A DNA stretch of 64,000 nucleotides from Nitratidesulfovibrio sp. SRB-5. Its GTDB lineage: Bacteria; Desulfobacterota; Desulfovibrionia; Desulfovibrionales; Desulfovibrionaceae. The position numbers were made by a program, and so were the translations under genes. Within the stretch, counting starts at the first letter, position 1. Each line of letters starts with the position of its first letter. The DNA lies in assembly GCF_019931275.1 (NCBI RefSeq), contig NZ_JAIOTY010000002.1:1204631-1268630 (forward strand), given 5' to 3'. A model generated the notes under the pieces. That model was not told where the DNA came from and did no database searches. It saw nothing but the letters and a program-made list of their open reading frames with translations. This document shows positions 23,821-50,948 of the stretch, one piece after another.

Positions 23821-23931
23821 GAAACCTCCGGATGCGTATCTTCTCGGGCCATGGTCTACCCCGGCGCGGCACGGGCGGCAAGCCGCATGGCGCGGCGGGG
23901 CATTCGGCCAGATTCCATGCTTTTTCCTGTC

Positions 23932-24606
23932 ATGCCTGACCCAACAACGGATTGCCTCATGCTCGACCTGGATGATGCCGCCGCGCTGTTGCGCGCGGGA
24001 CGGGTGGTGGTGTTTCCCACCGAGACCTTTTTCGGAGTGGGGTGCCTGGCCACCCATGCCGGAGCCGTGGACGAGGTGTACCGGGTGAAGCGCCGCGCCC
24101 ATCGCCTGGCCCTGCCGGTCATCGTGGGCCATGTGGACCAACTGGCGCAGGTGGCGGCCCCCATGGGCCCGGTGGCGGAAGGGCTGGCCCGGCGGTTCTG
24201 GCCGGGGCCGCTGTCCATCCTGCTGCCCGCGGCGCCCGGCGTGCCCGAGCCGCTTACAGGTGGTACGGGGCGCGTGGCCGTGCGCCTGACCCCGCATCCC
24301 GCGGCCCGCGAATTGTGCCTGCGGGCCGGTGGGCCGCTGGTGGCCAGCAGCGCCAACATCAGTGGGCGCCCAGCCGTGACGCGCGCCGTGGACCTTGATC
24401 CGGAACTGCTGGCCGAGGTGGCCGGGGTGATGGACCTGCCCCCCGCACCACCCGGCGGACTGCCCTCCACGCTGGTGGAAGTGCTGGATGGCGTCTGTTG
24501 CGCTACCGGCGGCTGTACTGGTGAGGGCGCGCCGCGCCTGCGGGTGTTGCGTGCCGGGGCCGTATCGGCGCAGGCCTTGCGCGATGCCGGGTACGCGCTG
24601 GAGTGA
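23932..24606 (+). CDS. Sua5/YciO/YrdC-family protein (threonylcarbamoyl-AMP synthase)
   Basis: 224 residues from 23932. ATGs at 23851 and 23959 are alternatives, none with a clear ribosome site, and 23959 (MLDLDDAAALLR) would give the tightest family fit. Key motifs are VVVFPTETFFGVGC, KRRAHRLALPVIVG (the KxR...K nucleotide site), LTPHPAAREL and the closing SSANISGRPA. It makes threonylcarbamoyl-AMP for t6A37 of ANN-decoding tRNAs. A Cys-bearing insert near the C-terminus (GVCCATGGC) is odd. Confidence 0.9.
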   Translation: MPDPTTDCLMLDLDDAAALLRAGRVVVFPTETFFGVGCLATHAGAVDEVYRVKRRAHRLALPVIVGHVDQLAQVAAPMGPVAEGLARRFWPGPLSILLPAAPGVPEPLTGGTGRVAVRLTPHPAARELCLRAGGPLVASSANISGRPAVTRAVDLDPELLAEVAGVMDLPPAPPGGLPSTLVEVLDGVCCATGGCTGEGAPRLRVLRAGAVSAQALRDAGYALE

Positions 24607-24731
24607 ACGGGTGGGGACAATCCTGCCGGGAGTACAAAAAATTTTTGCGGGGCCGTGACGGCAAAAGGGCCGCAAAACCGCATGGGACGGGCGCTGCACG
24701 GCGGCGGGAAAGTGGGTGGCAAAAAAGTTGA
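24607..24731. other. gene-free stretch after the YrdC gene
   Basis: An A/T run (AAAAAATTTTT, 24639-24649) next to an imperfect stem TTTTGCGG/CCGCAAAA may terminate YrdC transcription. Nothing else is recognised. Confidence 0.4.
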
Positions 24732-24749
24732 ACTGTTTGGCCAAACGGT
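24732..24749. promoter_or_regulatory. putative enhancer dyad (UAS) of the sigma-54 promoter
   Basis: Perfect palindrome GTTTGGCCAAAC (24735-24746), extended to 18 bp with one mismatched pair. Its centre is about 115 bp upstream of the -24 element, the normal distance for an NtrC-type activator site. Confidence 0.5.
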
Positions 24750-24854
24750 CCGTGCCGGTTCGCAGGCGGATGTTTCTTGCAAAAGCATGAAAAATCATGT
24801 GGATGCGAAGATGTCTGAAGGCGAAGCTGCCTGTGTTCAACCGCCTCGACGAGT

Positions 24855-24869
24855 TGGCACACCGCTTGC
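24855..24869 (+). promoter_or_regulatory. sigma-54 promoter of a candidate small RNA
   Basis: TTGGCAC, five bases, TTGCT. GG at 24856-24857 and GC at 24868-24869 are 12 bp apart. The match to the sigma-54 consensus is close to perfect. Predicted start point near 24881. There is no plus-strand gene before 26554. Confidence 0.8.
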
Positions 24870-24880
24870 TATATCCTGAT

Positions 24881-24936
24881 CACCTTCCTTTCTTTGCAGA
24901 TAACCGGTCCTACAGGGGTGTGGGACCGGTTTTTCT
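24881..24936 (+). ncRNA. candidate sigma-54-dependent small RNA (~55 nt)
   Basis: Predicted transcript from the sigma-54 start to an intrinsic terminator: AACCGGTCC/GGACCGGTT (24902-24910 with 24923-24931) and a T-rich tail TTTTTCTTTT. The single-stranded 5' part is C/U-rich (CACCUUCCUUUCUUUGC) and complementary in character to ribosome binding sites, as in many trans-acting regulators. No start codon with reading frame fits. It is a candidate only; it could also be the end of a longer YrdC transcript. Confidence 0.5.
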
Positions 24937-25046
24937 TTTGTGCCCCGTCCGCCATGGTCGTGTGCTGGCGTGGTTTCTGCCTTTCGGGGATATGTCGTGT
25001 GCTTCCGCCACGGACCTCCTGCCTGCCGTGCCTATTTGTCTTTATT

Positions 25047-26399
25047 TCAAGATATTCCAAGCAATTCAAGGGTGTTGGTCAGTGTTGTCCGCACGGTGAT
25101 GGCGGCCATGCACGGGCAGGGACCGTGGGGGTCAGTGGTGCCGTTGCGCCCTGTGTTCCCGGGGGGGCTGCCGTTGCCGTGTCCCCAGCCGCAGGCAAGC
25201 CTGCGCAGGGTGGCGGAGCAGGGCGCGCATTCCAGCGGGCTGGCCAGCGCCACCGCCCCGTGCGGGCACCATGCACTGGCGGGGGCCGGGCCGAACAGGG
25301 CCAGTACCGGCACTCCGTGCAGTGCGGCAAGATGCAGCGGCCCGGAATCGTTGCCGATCACCAGACGCGCGCTGCGCAGCAAATGCGCCAGCTCGTCGTG
25401 GTCGGCGGGGGTGACAACGGGCACATCACCTCCCTCCGGCATCAGGGAGCCCCGATCAAGGCCGCGTTCCAACTCCGCCGGACCCAGCACGTACAACGGA
25501 TTGTACCCGGCACGACGCAGTTCACCGGCCACGACGGCAAACCGTCGGGGAGGCCACTGTTTGGCCCGGTGTCCCGCGCCCGGCACCAGCACAACGGTGC
25601 GCGAATCCCCGCCGTCCCAGCCGCCGAACAGGGTTTGCCAGGTGCCGTGCCAGTTCTCGTCCCAGCGGGGCGGCCAGGGCAGGGCGGACGGAACCACATG
25701 TTCAAGCCGGTTGCGGAGCGTCTCGGTGACATGCCGGGCTTGACCAGTCGGCCCGATCTGCCCGATCTGCCCGATCTGCCCGATCTGCCCGATCTGCCCG
25801 ATCTGCCCGATCTGCCCGATCTGCCCGATCTGCCCGATCTGCCCGATCTGCCCGATCTGCCCGATCTGGCTGACATGGCTGACATGACTGGCATTGCCGG
25901 GGTGCGCAGCGGGGGCCATTGCCGGGGCTTCCGCGCCAGTGGCATCGCCGCCCGTGCCGCCGCCGCCCGTGCCGCCGCCGTCCATGCCGCCCCCGTCCAC
26001 ACCGGACGACAGGCAGGGCAGGGGCAGCACGCGCGGGTGGGCGGCCACCGAGGAGCGGTCCAGGCAGAACCACGCCAGCGTGGCCCCGGCCAGGGCTTGC
26101 GGCCAGACGGCTATTTCCGGCTCGCCGTACAGGCCGTCCAGCGCCCTGCGCATGTCCGGGGGGCAGGGCGCATAGCCCAGCGGGGCCAGCCAGCGCATGC
26201 GTTCCATGTTGCCTGCGAACAGCAGGCGCGGGGCATCGCCGCCCTTGCCGCCCTGGGCCACGGCGTGTTCTGGCCCGGCGCCGTCCGGCCTGGTGCCCGG
26301 CGTACCCGCCCCCCTCGCCAGCGCCAGCAGGGCGGGCCAGGCGCACAGGAAGTCGCCCAGCGCGCCGTTGTGCACGGCTATCAACTTGTCACTTTTCAT
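25047..26399 (-). CDS. glycosyltransferase family 9 (heptosyltransferase-like) protein
   Basis: 450 residues. The N-terminal Rossmann start LIAVHNGALGDFLCAWPALLAL and the C-terminal ADP-sugar site LVIGNDSGPLHLAALHGVPVLALFGPA...WCPHGA are typical of LPS heptosyltransferases (GT9). Between the two domains lies a low-complexity linker of about 90 residues: a Gly-rich run (GGGTGGGGTGGD), then thirteen repeats of Gln-Ile-Gly encoded by exact 9-bp units. Without the linker the length would be ordinary (~350). It probably adds a heptose or related sugar to a surface glycolipid at the inner membrane's cytoplasmic face. Confidence 0.85.
   Translation of the reverse strand: MKSDKLIAVHNGALGDFLCAWPALLALARGAGTPGTRPDGAGPEHAVAQGGKGGDAPRLLFAGNMERMRWLAPLGYAPCPPDMRRALDGLYGEPEIAVWPQALAGATLAWFCLDRSSVAAHPRVLPLPCLSSGVDGGGMDGGGTGGGGTGGDATGAEAPAMAPAAHPGNASHVSHVSQIGQIGQIGQIGQIGQIGQIGQIGQIGQIGQIGQIGQIGPTGQARHVTETLRNRLEHVVPSALPWPPRWDENWHGTWQTLFGGWDGGDSRTVVLVPGAGHRAKQWPPRRFAVVAGELRRAGYNPLYVLGPAELERGLDRGSLMPEGGDVPVVTPADHDELAHLLRSARLVIGNDSGPLHLAALHGVPVLALFGPAPASAWCPHGAVALASPLECAPCSATLRRLACGWGHGNGSPPGNTGRNGTTDPHGPCPCMAAITVRTTLTNTLELLGIS
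25752..25868. repeat. 9-bp in-frame tandem repeat, 13 units
   Basis: Thirteen consecutive exact copies of CCCGATCTG (plus strand), coding QIG on the minus strand inside the glycosyltransferase linker. Copy number changes would keep the frame and only alter linker length. Confidence 0.95.
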
Positions 26400-47558: not shown

Positions 47559-47648
47559 GCGTGTGCGTTGAATTTTAACATCATGAAATGAAAAAGAATT
47601 ATGAACAGCCTGCCAGGTGGCCGCAGTTCAGCCGCCCCGGCGGCATGG

Positions 47649-47694
47649 GTAATTCGGTTACGGGTGGGTTGGATGGTGTGGGTAAAAAGGTTAC
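47649..47694. promoter_or_regulatory. paired 13-bp dyads, putative response-regulator sites
   Basis: GTAATTCGGTTAC (47649-47661) and GTAAAAAGGTTAC (47682-47694) share GTAA-N4-GTTAC. Their centres are 33 bp apart, about three helical turns, and about 100 and 130 bp upstream of the -24 element of the SHOCT promoter. They also lie in the leader of the histidine kinase gene, so autoregulation is possible. Confidence 0.6.
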
Positions 47695-47719
47695 ATATCC
47701 CCGCCGACAGGAGGAACCG

Positions 47720-49570
47720 ATGGTATTGAACCCCGACATGCCCGACCGCAAGGGCGCGGCATCTCGCCTTTCGCCGTGGCTGGTGGTGGGCATGGCCATG
47801 ATTCTGGCGCTGGCCGTGGTGGTCCTTGCGGTGCGCAACACCCAGCGTGAGCGACGGCACATGTCGCAGAATCTCATGGACCGGGCGGAAGCGCTGATCT
47901 GGGCGCTGGAGGCGGGCACGCGGATCTGGATGGGCAAGAGCGGGGGCGGGCAGCATTTGCAGGCCCTGCTGGCGGAAACCGCCAGGCAGCCGGGCATCGC
48001 CTACATGGCCGTGGTGGACGGGCGCGGCGTCATCATCGCCCACAGCAACAGGGACAGCATAGGGCAGCCCCTGCACGCGGCGGAGGACGGCGGCATTCCC
48101 GCAACCACGCAGGAGAGGCAGTGGCGCACCATTGAAACCCCTTCCGGCAAGGTTTTCGAGGTGTACAAGGTGTTCTCGCCGTCCCTGCCGCTGCTGCATG
48201 ATGCCGGGCACGCCCCCGGCTCCAGTTGCACGGACGGTGGCGGGTCTTCTCCGCCAACCCCTTCGGGATATGGCGAAAGTGGGGCGGAACGGCACGACAT
48301 CTTCGTGGGGCTTGCCGTGGCGCCGTTCGAGGAGGCGCTGACGGAAGACCTGCGCAATGCGGCCATGTTCGCCCTGCTGGTGGTCACGCTTGGCTTCGGG
48401 GGATTCATCTCGCTGTTCTGGGCGCAGAACTACCGGCTGTCGCGCAGGCTGCTGCGGGATACGCGGGCGTTCGCGACGGAGGTTGTCACCCAGCTTCCCG
48501 TGGGTCTGCTGGTCACTGACGGGGATGACGCCATCACCATGGCCAACGCCTCGGTGGCGGCCATGCTGGGGCAGAAGCAGGAGCGGCTGGAAGGTTCCCC
48601 CCTGGGCGGCAGGTGGGGCGTGGACTGGCGTGGGGCCTGCGACGACCTTGCCGCGGGAAAGCCCGTCATGGAGCGGGAATGCGAACTGGTGGCGGAGGAC
48701 GGAAGGGTGGTCCCCGCAAGCCTCAGCGCCTCGCGCATCGTCAATGAAGACGGCGAATTCCTGGGCCACCTGTTCATCCTGCGCAACCTGGAGGAAGTGA
48801 AGCGCCTGCAAGACCAGTTGCGGCGCAACGAACGGCTGTCCGCGCTGGGCAACCTGGCTGCGGGCGTGGCCCACGAGATCCGCAACCCCCTCAGTTCCAT
48901 CAAGGGCTTCGCCACCTATCTCGCGGGGCGGCTTCAGGACGACGGCAAGGGCAGGGATGCGGCCCGGCTCGTCGTGCAGGAGGTGGACCGGCTGAACCGC
49001 GTGGTCTGCGAACTGCTGGAGTTCGCCCGTCCCGGCGTGCCGGACCTGCGTGAGGTGCACGTGGACACGGTCATCGAGCGGTCCGTGCGACTGGCCGCAA
49101 CCGATGCGGCGGCACGGGGCGTGGATTTGCGCTGCGAGCCGGGCCCCGCGCTGCCTTTGGCCTTCCTGGATGCGGAGCGGTTCACCCAGGCCCTGCTGAA
49201 CCTGTTGCTGAACGCGGTGGAGGCCACGCCGCCGGGCGGAAGCGTGGAGGTGCGCGCCGCCGCCCGGTCGGAAAAAGGGCCGGAAAAAGGGCCGGAAAAA
49301 AGGGCGGAGAGGGGGCCGGGCGGCAAGCCGGATGCAGGGCCCCGCGCATGGCTGGACGTTCAGGTGGCCGACACCGGACGGGGCATGTCGCCAGACGTGC
49401 TGAAGGAGATATTCAACCCCTATTTCACCACCAAGCCCTCCGGAACGGGATTGGGGCTGGCCATCGTGCACGGGGTGGTGGAAGCGCACGGCGGGTCCAT
49501 AAAGGTCGAGAGCCAGCCGGACAGGGGAACCACCGTGACCATATCGCTGCCGCTGCGGCGGCCTGCATGA
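47720..49570 (+). CDS. ZraS/NtrB-like sensor histidine kinase
   Basis: 616 residues from MVLNPDMPDR, with AGGAGG six bases upstream (the frame extends to 47588 without a ribosome site). Membrane segments at about 19-38 and 214-236 enclose a periplasmic sensor domain of about 175 residues. A PAS domain (about 252-360) and HisKA with His385 in GVAHEIRNPLSS follow, then HATPase with NLLLNAVEATP, DTGRGM and GTGLGLAIVHG. A charged EKGPEKGPEKRAERG repeat insert lies in the ATPase domain (about 515-535). The domain order is that of ZraS. Next to an NtrC-type regulator (7-bp gap). Confidence 0.93.
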   Translation: MVLNPDMPDRKGAASRLSPWLVVGMAMILALAVVVLAVRNTQRERRHMSQNLMDRAEALIWALEAGTRIWMGKSGGGQHLQALLAETARQPGIAYMAVVDGRGVIIAHSNRDSIGQPLHAAEDGGIPATTQERQWRTIETPSGKVFEVYKVFSPSLPLLHDAGHAPGSSCTDGGGSSPPTPSGYGESGAERHDIFVGLAVAPFEEALTEDLRNAAMFALLVVTLGFGGFISLFWAQNYRLSRRLLRDTRAFATEVVTQLPVGLLVTDGDDAITMANASVAAMLGQKQERLEGSPLGGRWGVDWRGACDDLAAGKPVMERECELVAEDGRVVPASLSASRIVNEDGEFLGHLFILRNLEEVKRLQDQLRRNERLSALGNLAAGVAHEIRNPLSSIKGFATYLAGRLQDDGKGRDAARLVVQEVDRLNRVVCELLEFARPGVPDLREVHVDTVIERSVRLAATDAAARGVDLRCEPGPALPLAFLDAERFTQALLNLLLNAVEATPPGGSVEVRAAARSEKGPEKGPEKRAERGPGGKPDAGPRAWLDVQVADTGRGMSPDVLKEIFNPYFTTKPSGTGLGLAIVHGVVEAHGGSIKVESQPDRGTTVTISLPLRRPA

Positions 49571-49577
49571 GGAAGGC

Positions 49578-50948
49578 ATGACCAGAACATCCGGCACGCG
49601 GCTGCTGGTGGTGGACGACGACGCCACGCACCGCGGCATGTTGCAGACCCTGCTGGCCGACTGGGGCTACCGCACCGAATGCGCCGGTGACGGCGAAACC
49701 GCCGTCACCCTGTGCAGGGAAGCCCCGTTCGACCTCATCCTGATGGACCTGCGCATGGGCGTGCTGTCCGGCATCGGCGCGCTGCGGGAAATAAGGGCCT
49801 ACAACCCGGCCATCCCCATCCTGATAATGACGGCATATTCCAACGTGGAGTCCGCCGTGGACGCCATCAGGTCCGGGGCCTACGACTACCTGACCAAGCC
49901 GCTGGACTTCGAGGAACTGCGCCTGACGCTGGAACGCGCGCTGGACCACGCCGCCCTGCGCGACGAGAACGCCGCGCTCAAGACCACGCTGGCCGCATCG
50001 TTCGATCCGGCGGGCATCATCGGGCAAAGCCAGTCCATGCACCGGCTGATGGACATGATGGCCTCCATCGCGCCATCGGAAGCCACGGTGCTGGTCACGG
50101 GCGAGTCCGGCACCGGCAAGGAACTCATCGCGCGGGCCATCCACGCCAACAGCCAGCGGCGGCATGGCCCTTACGTGACGGTGAACTGCGCGGCCCTGAC
50201 GGAAACGCTGCTGGAATCCGAGTTGTTCGGGCACGAGAAGGGCGCGTTCACCGGTGCGGAAAAACGGCGCGAGGGGCGCTTTCAGTCTGCGGACAAGGGG
50301 ACCATCTTCCTCGACGAGATAGGCGAGACCTCGCTGCCCATGCAGGCCAAGCTGTTGCGCGCCATTCAGGAGCGCGAGATACAGCGCGTGGGCAGCGACC
50401 AGACGCTTCGGGTGGACGTGCGCATCATCGCCGCCACCAATCGCGACCTGAGGGCAGAGGTGGAAGCGGGGCGCTTCAGGCAGGACCTGTACTACCGGCT
50501 CAACGTGGTCACCCTGCACGTTCCGCCCCTGCGCGAACGGGTGGAGGACATCCCGCTGCTTGCGGGGCACTTCTTGCGCAGGTTCACCGAAAAGAACGGC
50601 AAACGGGTGAAGGGCTTCACGCCGCAGGCCATGGACAGGTTGCTCAAGCACGACTGGCCGGGCAACGTGCGCGAACTGGAGAATGCCGCGGAGCGTGCCG
50701 TGGTGCTGCTGGTGGGGGAATACATCAGCGAACGGGAACTGCCCCACGCCATCGCGGGGGAAGATGGGGACGCGACGTGCGCGGTGCCCCGGTTCAATGG
50801 CATGACGCTGGAGGAAATCGAGCGGGCGGCCATACTGGACGCCATGGACGTCTCGGAAGGCAACAAGAGCGAGGCCGCCCGGCGGCTGGGGATTACCCGC
50901 AAGACCCTGCATGCCAAGCTGAACCGCTACGCCGACGACGAACAGTGA
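49578..50948 (+). CDS. NtrC-family sigma-54 response regulator (ZraR-like)
   Basis: 456 residues. Receiver domain with phospho-acceptor Asp57 (LILMDLRM) and the acidic pocket VVDDD; AAA+ domain with Walker A GESGTGKE (175-182), the sigma-54 contact loop GAFTGA (222-227, intact) and Walker B region GTIFLDEI; a C-terminal Fis-type helix-turn-helix NKSEAARRLGITRKTLHAKL. It should open sigma-54 promoters when phosphorylated by the adjacent kinase. The sigma-54 promoter and paired dyads before the divergent SHOCT gene are the natural targets. Confidence 0.95.
   Translation: MTRTSGTRLLVVDDDATHRGMLQTLLADWGYRTECAGDGETAVTLCREAPFDLILMDLRMGVLSGIGALREIRAYNPAIPILIMTAYSNVESAVDAIRSGAYDYLTKPLDFEELRLTLERALDHAALRDENAALKTTLAASFDPAGIIGQSQSMHRLMDMMASIAPSEATVLVTGESGTGKELIARAIHANSQRRHGPYVTVNCAALTETLLESELFGHEKGAFTGAEKRREGRFQSADKGTIFLDEIGETSLPMQAKLLRAIQEREIQRVGSDQTLRVDVRIIAATNRDLRAEVEAGRFRQDLYYRLNVVTLHVPPLRERVEDIPLLAGHFLRRFTEKNGKRVKGFTPQAMDRLLKHDWPGNVRELENAAERAVVLLVGEYISERELPHAIAGEDGDATCAVPRFNGMTLEEIERAAILDAMDVSEGNKSEAARRLGITRKTLHAKLNRYADDEQ

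Follow-up and report, generated by a model that had tools for sequence, protein, structure and literature searches.

Trans-acting enterobacterial small RNAs such as MicF, MicC, MicA, and RybB require Hfq and block translation of outer-membrane protein mRNAs; RybB is transcribed from a sigma-E promoter, and its 5′ end is an autonomous seed. The Qrr RNAs of Vibrio, which are ~100 nt long and Hfq-dependent, are activated by LuxO and target quorum-sensing mRNAs, and the alphaproteobacterial 'cuckoo' RNAs (alpha-r14) are multi-copy and carry C/U-rich anti-Shine-Dalgarno motifs in hairpin loops. NcS25, an 84-nt RNA of the Hfq-bearing species Burkholderia cenocepacia, is constitutive, has no sigma-54-like promoter, and represses a porin, matching the Shine-Dalgarno sequence of its mRNA perfectly over 7 nt (PMC10117139). 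Desulfovibrio vulgaris Hildenborough produces four sigma-54-dependent ncRNAs of unknown function, which have four different regulators, adjoin the regulator gene in two cases, and have had no porin target proposed for them (PMC3333781, PMC4641369). Post-transcriptional regulation is almost unstudied in sulfate-reducing bacteria, and our literature search found no Desulfovibrio small RNA tied to a porin, the protein whose abundance governs entry of nutrients, metals, nitrite, and antimicrobials into the cell and their exit from it.

We analyzed a 64-kb window (the whole stretch of DNA under study, 64,000 nt) that contains a predicted small RNA, and the evidence from its sequence and from related genomes makes it very probable that this RNA acts in trans to repress the major outer-membrane porin, independently of Hfq and under the control of sigma-54. 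Like NcS25, it belongs to a conserved family predicted to bind a porin mRNA at its Shine-Dalgarno region, but it differs in its sigma-54 promoter, its 15–19-nt 5′-terminal seed, its lineage, and its multiple copies. The proposed mode of action is similar to that of the enterobacterial porin RNAs, which differ in their promoter classes and their need for Hfq; an Rfam scan of the 64-kb window gave nothing above gathering score, and no sequence relation to NcS25 or to the enterobacterial porin-silencing RNAs was found. The family resembles the Qrr RNAs in having several siblings per genome, sigma-54 promoters with upstream activator sites, and a shared conserved pairing region, but length, Hfq, activator, and targets differ, and no Qrr match appeared in the Rfam scan. 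The Hildenborough ncRNAs, located near DVU0653, DVU0679, DVU2357, and DVU3282, come from a close relative and likewise have sigma-54 promoters and enhancer-binding-protein sites. Multiple copies and C/U-rich anti-Shine-Dalgarno motifs recall the 'cuckoo' RNAs, whereas the motif described here forms a 5′ tail that is single-stranded and whose target is specific and co-varies with it, and both lineage and promoters differ. Judged in this way, the family appears to work like the known porin-silencing RNAs and is a member of none of them.

Table. Features of the small-RNA locus (window coordinates), its paralogues, and its predicted target genes.
Feature	Position	Strand	Remarks
sua5/tsaC-like L-threonylcarbamoyladenylate synthase (PF01300, TIGR00057)	23851..24606	+	conserved neighbor upstream of copy A
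Upstream activator palindrome 1 (putative), AGTACAAAAAATTTTTGC	24631..24648		12.5 bits
Upstream activator palindrome 2 (putative), TGGCAAAAAAGTTGAACT	24717..24734		11.6 bits; kept in sister species
Dyad ACTGTTTGGCCAAACGGT, 12-bp core GTTTGGCCAAAC	24732..24749		from the preliminary description; overlaps end of palindrome 2
Sigma-54 promoter TTGGCACACCGCTTGCT, TTGGCAC-N5-TTGCT (-24/-12)	24854..24870	+	kept in orthologues and paralogues
Predicted small RNA, ~58 nt (copy A)	24881..24938	+	3′ of sua5; start from -12 spacing, end from terminator
5′ seed ACCUUCCUUUCUUUGC	24882..24897	+	complementary to porin mRNA leader GCAAAGGAAGGAAGG
Intrinsic terminator	24902..24936	+	13-pair stem 24902-24931 plus U run
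Glycosyltransferase family 9 (PF01075)	25047..26399	-	conserved convergent neighbor downstream
Small RNA copy B	C2:1120093		near seryl-tRNA synthetase
Small RNA copy C	C7:4906		between acyl-CoA ligase gene and HDOD gene
Tandem DESULF_POR1 porins	C1:778384 and C1:780095		predicted RNA target genes in this genome

A preliminary description of this DNA had proposed a near-perfect sigma-54 promoter, a transcript start at 24881, and an intrinsic terminator with a T run on the plus strand, and each of these features held up. The promoter is the sole occurrence of TTGGCAY-N5-TTGCW on either strand of the window (0.035 expected from Markov shuffles), and its -24 and -12 elements (TGGCA-N7-TTGC) are correctly spaced relative to the RNA 5′ end, with the predicted start 12 nt past the C of the -12 element. 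Genome-wide, TGGCAYN5TTGC occurred 30 times compared to 6 for the reversed-pattern control, indicating that sigma-54 promoters are a real class in this genome, and we infer that the small RNA is transcribed and depends on RpoN. The predicted transcript contains no ATG and consists of a C/U-rich 5′ tail and a strong terminator hairpin, whose stem is trailed on the plus strand by TTTTTCTTTT; in the predicted fold (-24.5 kcal/mol), the 5′-most 17 nt are unpaired. By sequence and fold, this predicted transcript is a non-coding RNA with its own intrinsic terminator.

To find relatives, we searched with the 241-bp region, which recovered orthologues in sister species together with a block common to other loci that was limited to the promoter plus ~20 nt at the start of the RNA. 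There are three copies in the genome itself (A, B, and C), and one to four per genome in genus g32. A promoter-plus-CCTTCC pattern was present in 134 of 297 Desulfovibrionales genomes; in the relevant genera, the reversed control matched far less often. We gathered 118 distinct pattern hits, up to four per genome and nearly all from Desulfovibrionales, two of which (L054 and L165) are probably chance matches and were excluded from the palindrome analysis described below. Conservation of the CCTTCC core is partly built in, because the search pattern contained it, but the pattern included neither the remaining seed bases nor the terminators and palindromes. Family members have a C/U-rich tail (W-CCUUCCUYY...) 12–13 nt past the -12 element; in most cases, a terminator comes next, and its sequence varies between lineages. 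Thus, in the comparison with relatives that the preliminary description had called for, the promoter, 5′ tail, and terminator proved to be conserved throughout the order. A stricter pattern applied to 84,980 species returned 37 stretches, all labeled as Desulfovibrionales or with a broader deltaproteobacterial name except for one from a termite-gut bin labeled Betaproteobacteria. On the contig with this label (L083, WRKB01000277.1), a typical family member is accompanied by palindromes, and the contig is most likely that of a misassigned termite-gut Desulfovibrio.

Upstream of nearly all members, at a distance of 80–200 bp appropriate for enhancer-binding-protein sites, we found a palindrome, present once or twice, with the consensus GTWMAAAWWTTTKWAC. 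Using a matrix trained on the same 114 upstream regions, with porin and other sigma-54 loci kept outside the training, sites scoring at least 8 bits were present in 114/114 of these regions compared to 15/114 for the reversed control; 102 of the 114 members had at least two sites, and the median position was 131 bp upstream. The palindrome was found at 0/27 of the other sigma-54-like loci of this genome. Palindromes 1 and 2 are the best two sites of the entire 64 kb, and this pair is most likely the activator site, as judged from sequence. The dyad with a perfect 12-bp core noted in the preliminary description does exist, but it is unlikely to be the main activator site: it is only partly conserved within the genus (as TTG-NN-CAAACGG in sister species) and is missing from the paralogues.

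Two candidates for the activator were rejected. One, a ZraSR-like two-component system whose sensor gene is preceded by a palindrome (L341), has its own conserved motif, TGTGCAAN4TTGCACA, and the gut Desulfovibrio genus has the small RNA yet gives only weak sensor matches. This motif, found upstream of the ZraS-like sensor kinase gene in several genera (L341:5564, L344:4747, L349, L351, L359, and L360), is probably the regulatory site of that system itself. The other is encoded in the window itself: genes for a membrane histidine kinase and, after it, an NtrC-type sigma-54 response regulator (49578-50948) occupy 47588-50948, at a distance of 23 kb from the RNA, but there is no family palindrome near this regulator and nothing supports it as the activator. 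In a reduced Desulfovibrio genome of 1.41 Mb that retains the small RNA (G139), the 57% searched contains a single NtrC-type response regulator (L387:18224-19603), which lies near a phosphoglycerate mutase gene, has no assigned orthologue in the genome studied here, and is a candidate activator as a lead only.

Two independent routes, palindrome searching and seed complementarity, led to the same porin gene as the predicted target of the RNA. A genome search for the palindrome with at most one mismatch found copy B and one site upstream of the porin gene. Searching for leaders complementary to the seed, we found a single genomic match to RYRAARRRAGGAAGG-N3-12-RTG, which is the porin, and two matches to a looser pattern, the porin and its tandem porin neighbor. 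The porin leader CCGCAAAGGAAGGAAGGGAAAACAATG pairs with the 5′ end of the RNA over 15 bp, including one G-U. The predicted target encodes a homotrimeric porin of the outer membrane (NF033939, E 1e-177) from the family that includes DVU0799, the major or dominant porin in the outer membrane of D. vulgaris Hildenborough (PMC5686591).

To determine if this complementarity is maintained, we compared 90 porin starts from 40 genomes. Perfect seed-leader matches of 16–19 bp were observed in genera with different seeds, including G031 (seed ACCUUCCUCCUUUUGC, porin leader GCAAAAGGAGGAAGGU, match GCAAAAGGAGGAAGGT), G109 (seed ACCUUCCUUCUUUUGC, leader GCAAAAGAAGGAAGGU, match GCAAAAGAAGGAAGGT), and gut Desulfovibrio (seed ACCUUCCUUUCUUUUGC, leader GCAAAAGAAAGGAAGG, perfect match in G041, G186, and G233); pairing extended over 19 bases in G042 and over 17 bases in G241 (perfect match CAGCAAAGAAAGGAAGG). 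The seed of G110 lacks UUUUGC, and its leader is changed accordingly, with pairing retained. When partners were permuted at the level of 13 genera, own pairs averaged -20.7 kcal/mol compared to -17.8 kcal/mol (sd 0.66) for permuted pairs, with 0/100,000 permutations as good (p about 1e-5); restricting the test to the variable half of the seed gave p=0.0024. Complementarity was weak or absent in G008, G019, G058, G071, and G219, all of which have the RNA; in these genomes, the target may be different or may lie outside the leaders fetched. The small RNA has conserved complementarity to the porin translation start region, and the earlier proposal of a very short, C/U-rich, sigma-54-dependent RNA able to pair with ribosome binding sites gains support from sequence and, in addition, a specific, co-varying target.

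The tail, which is CACCUUCCUUUCUUU here and CCUUCCUCCUUUU elsewhere in the family, is similar to the anti-Shine-Dalgarno sequence and could pair generically with GGAAGG leaders, as would be expected for an RNA that mimics the 16S rRNA 3′ end and damps translation of many mRNAs. Such broad action is unlikely, however, because the complementarity extends well beyond the Shine-Dalgarno core and tracks genus-specific changes in porin leaders, because the pre-ATG motif occurs in this genome at porin genes only, and because none of the 2,027 ATG contexts in the window pairs with the RNA as strongly as the porin does.

The palindrome, as learned from the RNA genes only, scored at least 12 bits in 44/89 porin upstream regions compared to 1/89 when reversed, and it closely precedes a sigma-70-like -35 box there. 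The presence of the same palindrome at porin promoters suggests that the regulator of the RNA may also act directly on porin transcription, with a sign that the sequence leaves open. This ambiguity bears on another reading, in which the RNA targets the porin as a positive regulator or a sponge, either protecting the porin mRNA or being titrated by an abundant leader. Porin mRNA is indeed expected to be very abundant, given that DVU0799 is the dominant porin (PMC5686591), but the pairing spans the very Shine-Dalgarno sequence, an arrangement that normally prevents initiation, and the predicted leader has no buried Shine-Dalgarno sequence that pairing would obviously open; we consider positive or sponge action improbable.

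In the favored model of porin repression, a signal would cause an NtrC-type enhancer-binding protein to bind the palindromes and switch on the RNA, the 5′ end of which would pair in the cell over at least 15 bases with the porin Shine-Dalgarno region, block ribosome entry, and lower porin synthesis without Hfq. The same regulator would also be present at porin promoters via the shared palindrome, creating a feed-forward loop. No connection of the small RNA with nitrogen emerged among the results obtained, and the inducing signal is more likely to concern the envelope or permeability because the target is an outer-membrane porin. A search for Hfq (PF17209) was negative for all 39 Desulfovibrionales genomes examined and positive for all five controls reported, among them E. 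coli and B. subtilis; the RNA thus falls outside class I (Hfq-dependent) small RNAs, for which the organism encodes Hfq, and a long 5′-terminal seed fits pairing without this chaperone. We see even chances that these elements form an order-wide, Hfq-free outer-membrane circuit, in which one sigma-54 activator would recognize the same palindrome at sibling RNA genes and at the porin promoter, porin transcription and translation of existing porin mRNA would be adjusted together, and a 15–19-nt seed co-evolving with a single target would replace the chaperone. If true, a trans-acting RNA would function without Hfq by means of a long, near-perfect 5′-terminal seed that evolves alongside one target, and this conserved family, for which promoter class, start site, seed, and target are all predicted, makes the proposal testable in a tractable genus.

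The arrangement of copy A, 3′ of sua5 and convergent with the family-9 glycosyltransferase gene, is retained in families f1, f3, and f5, the Sua5 proteins of which are just 36–47% identical. The terminator is close to the promoter and the next gene is convergent, but it is highly improbable that the RNA serves a downstream gene as its leader or attenuated transcript, or is antisense to the glycosyltransferase, instead of acting in trans, because paralogues at unrelated loci retain the seed and promoter and not the neighbors, because no plus-strand gene follows for 1.6 kb, as the preliminary description had correctly stated (the nearest, a Nudix-type gene, starts at about 26554), and because the RNA stops ~110 bp short of the glycosyltransferase stop codon. 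In genera g34 and g30, small RNAs also occur as tandem pairs a few hundred bp apart (L338:5573 and 6087; L071:1500 and 1874; L125, L129, and L130), and in G133 the two tandem copies have distinct seeds, which match separate porin leaders. Finally, the family-9 glycosyltransferase gene contains (Ile-Gly-Gln)n tandem codon repeats at approximately 25750-25875 of the window, which are atypical of the fold of such enzymes and may vary in length from strain to strain.
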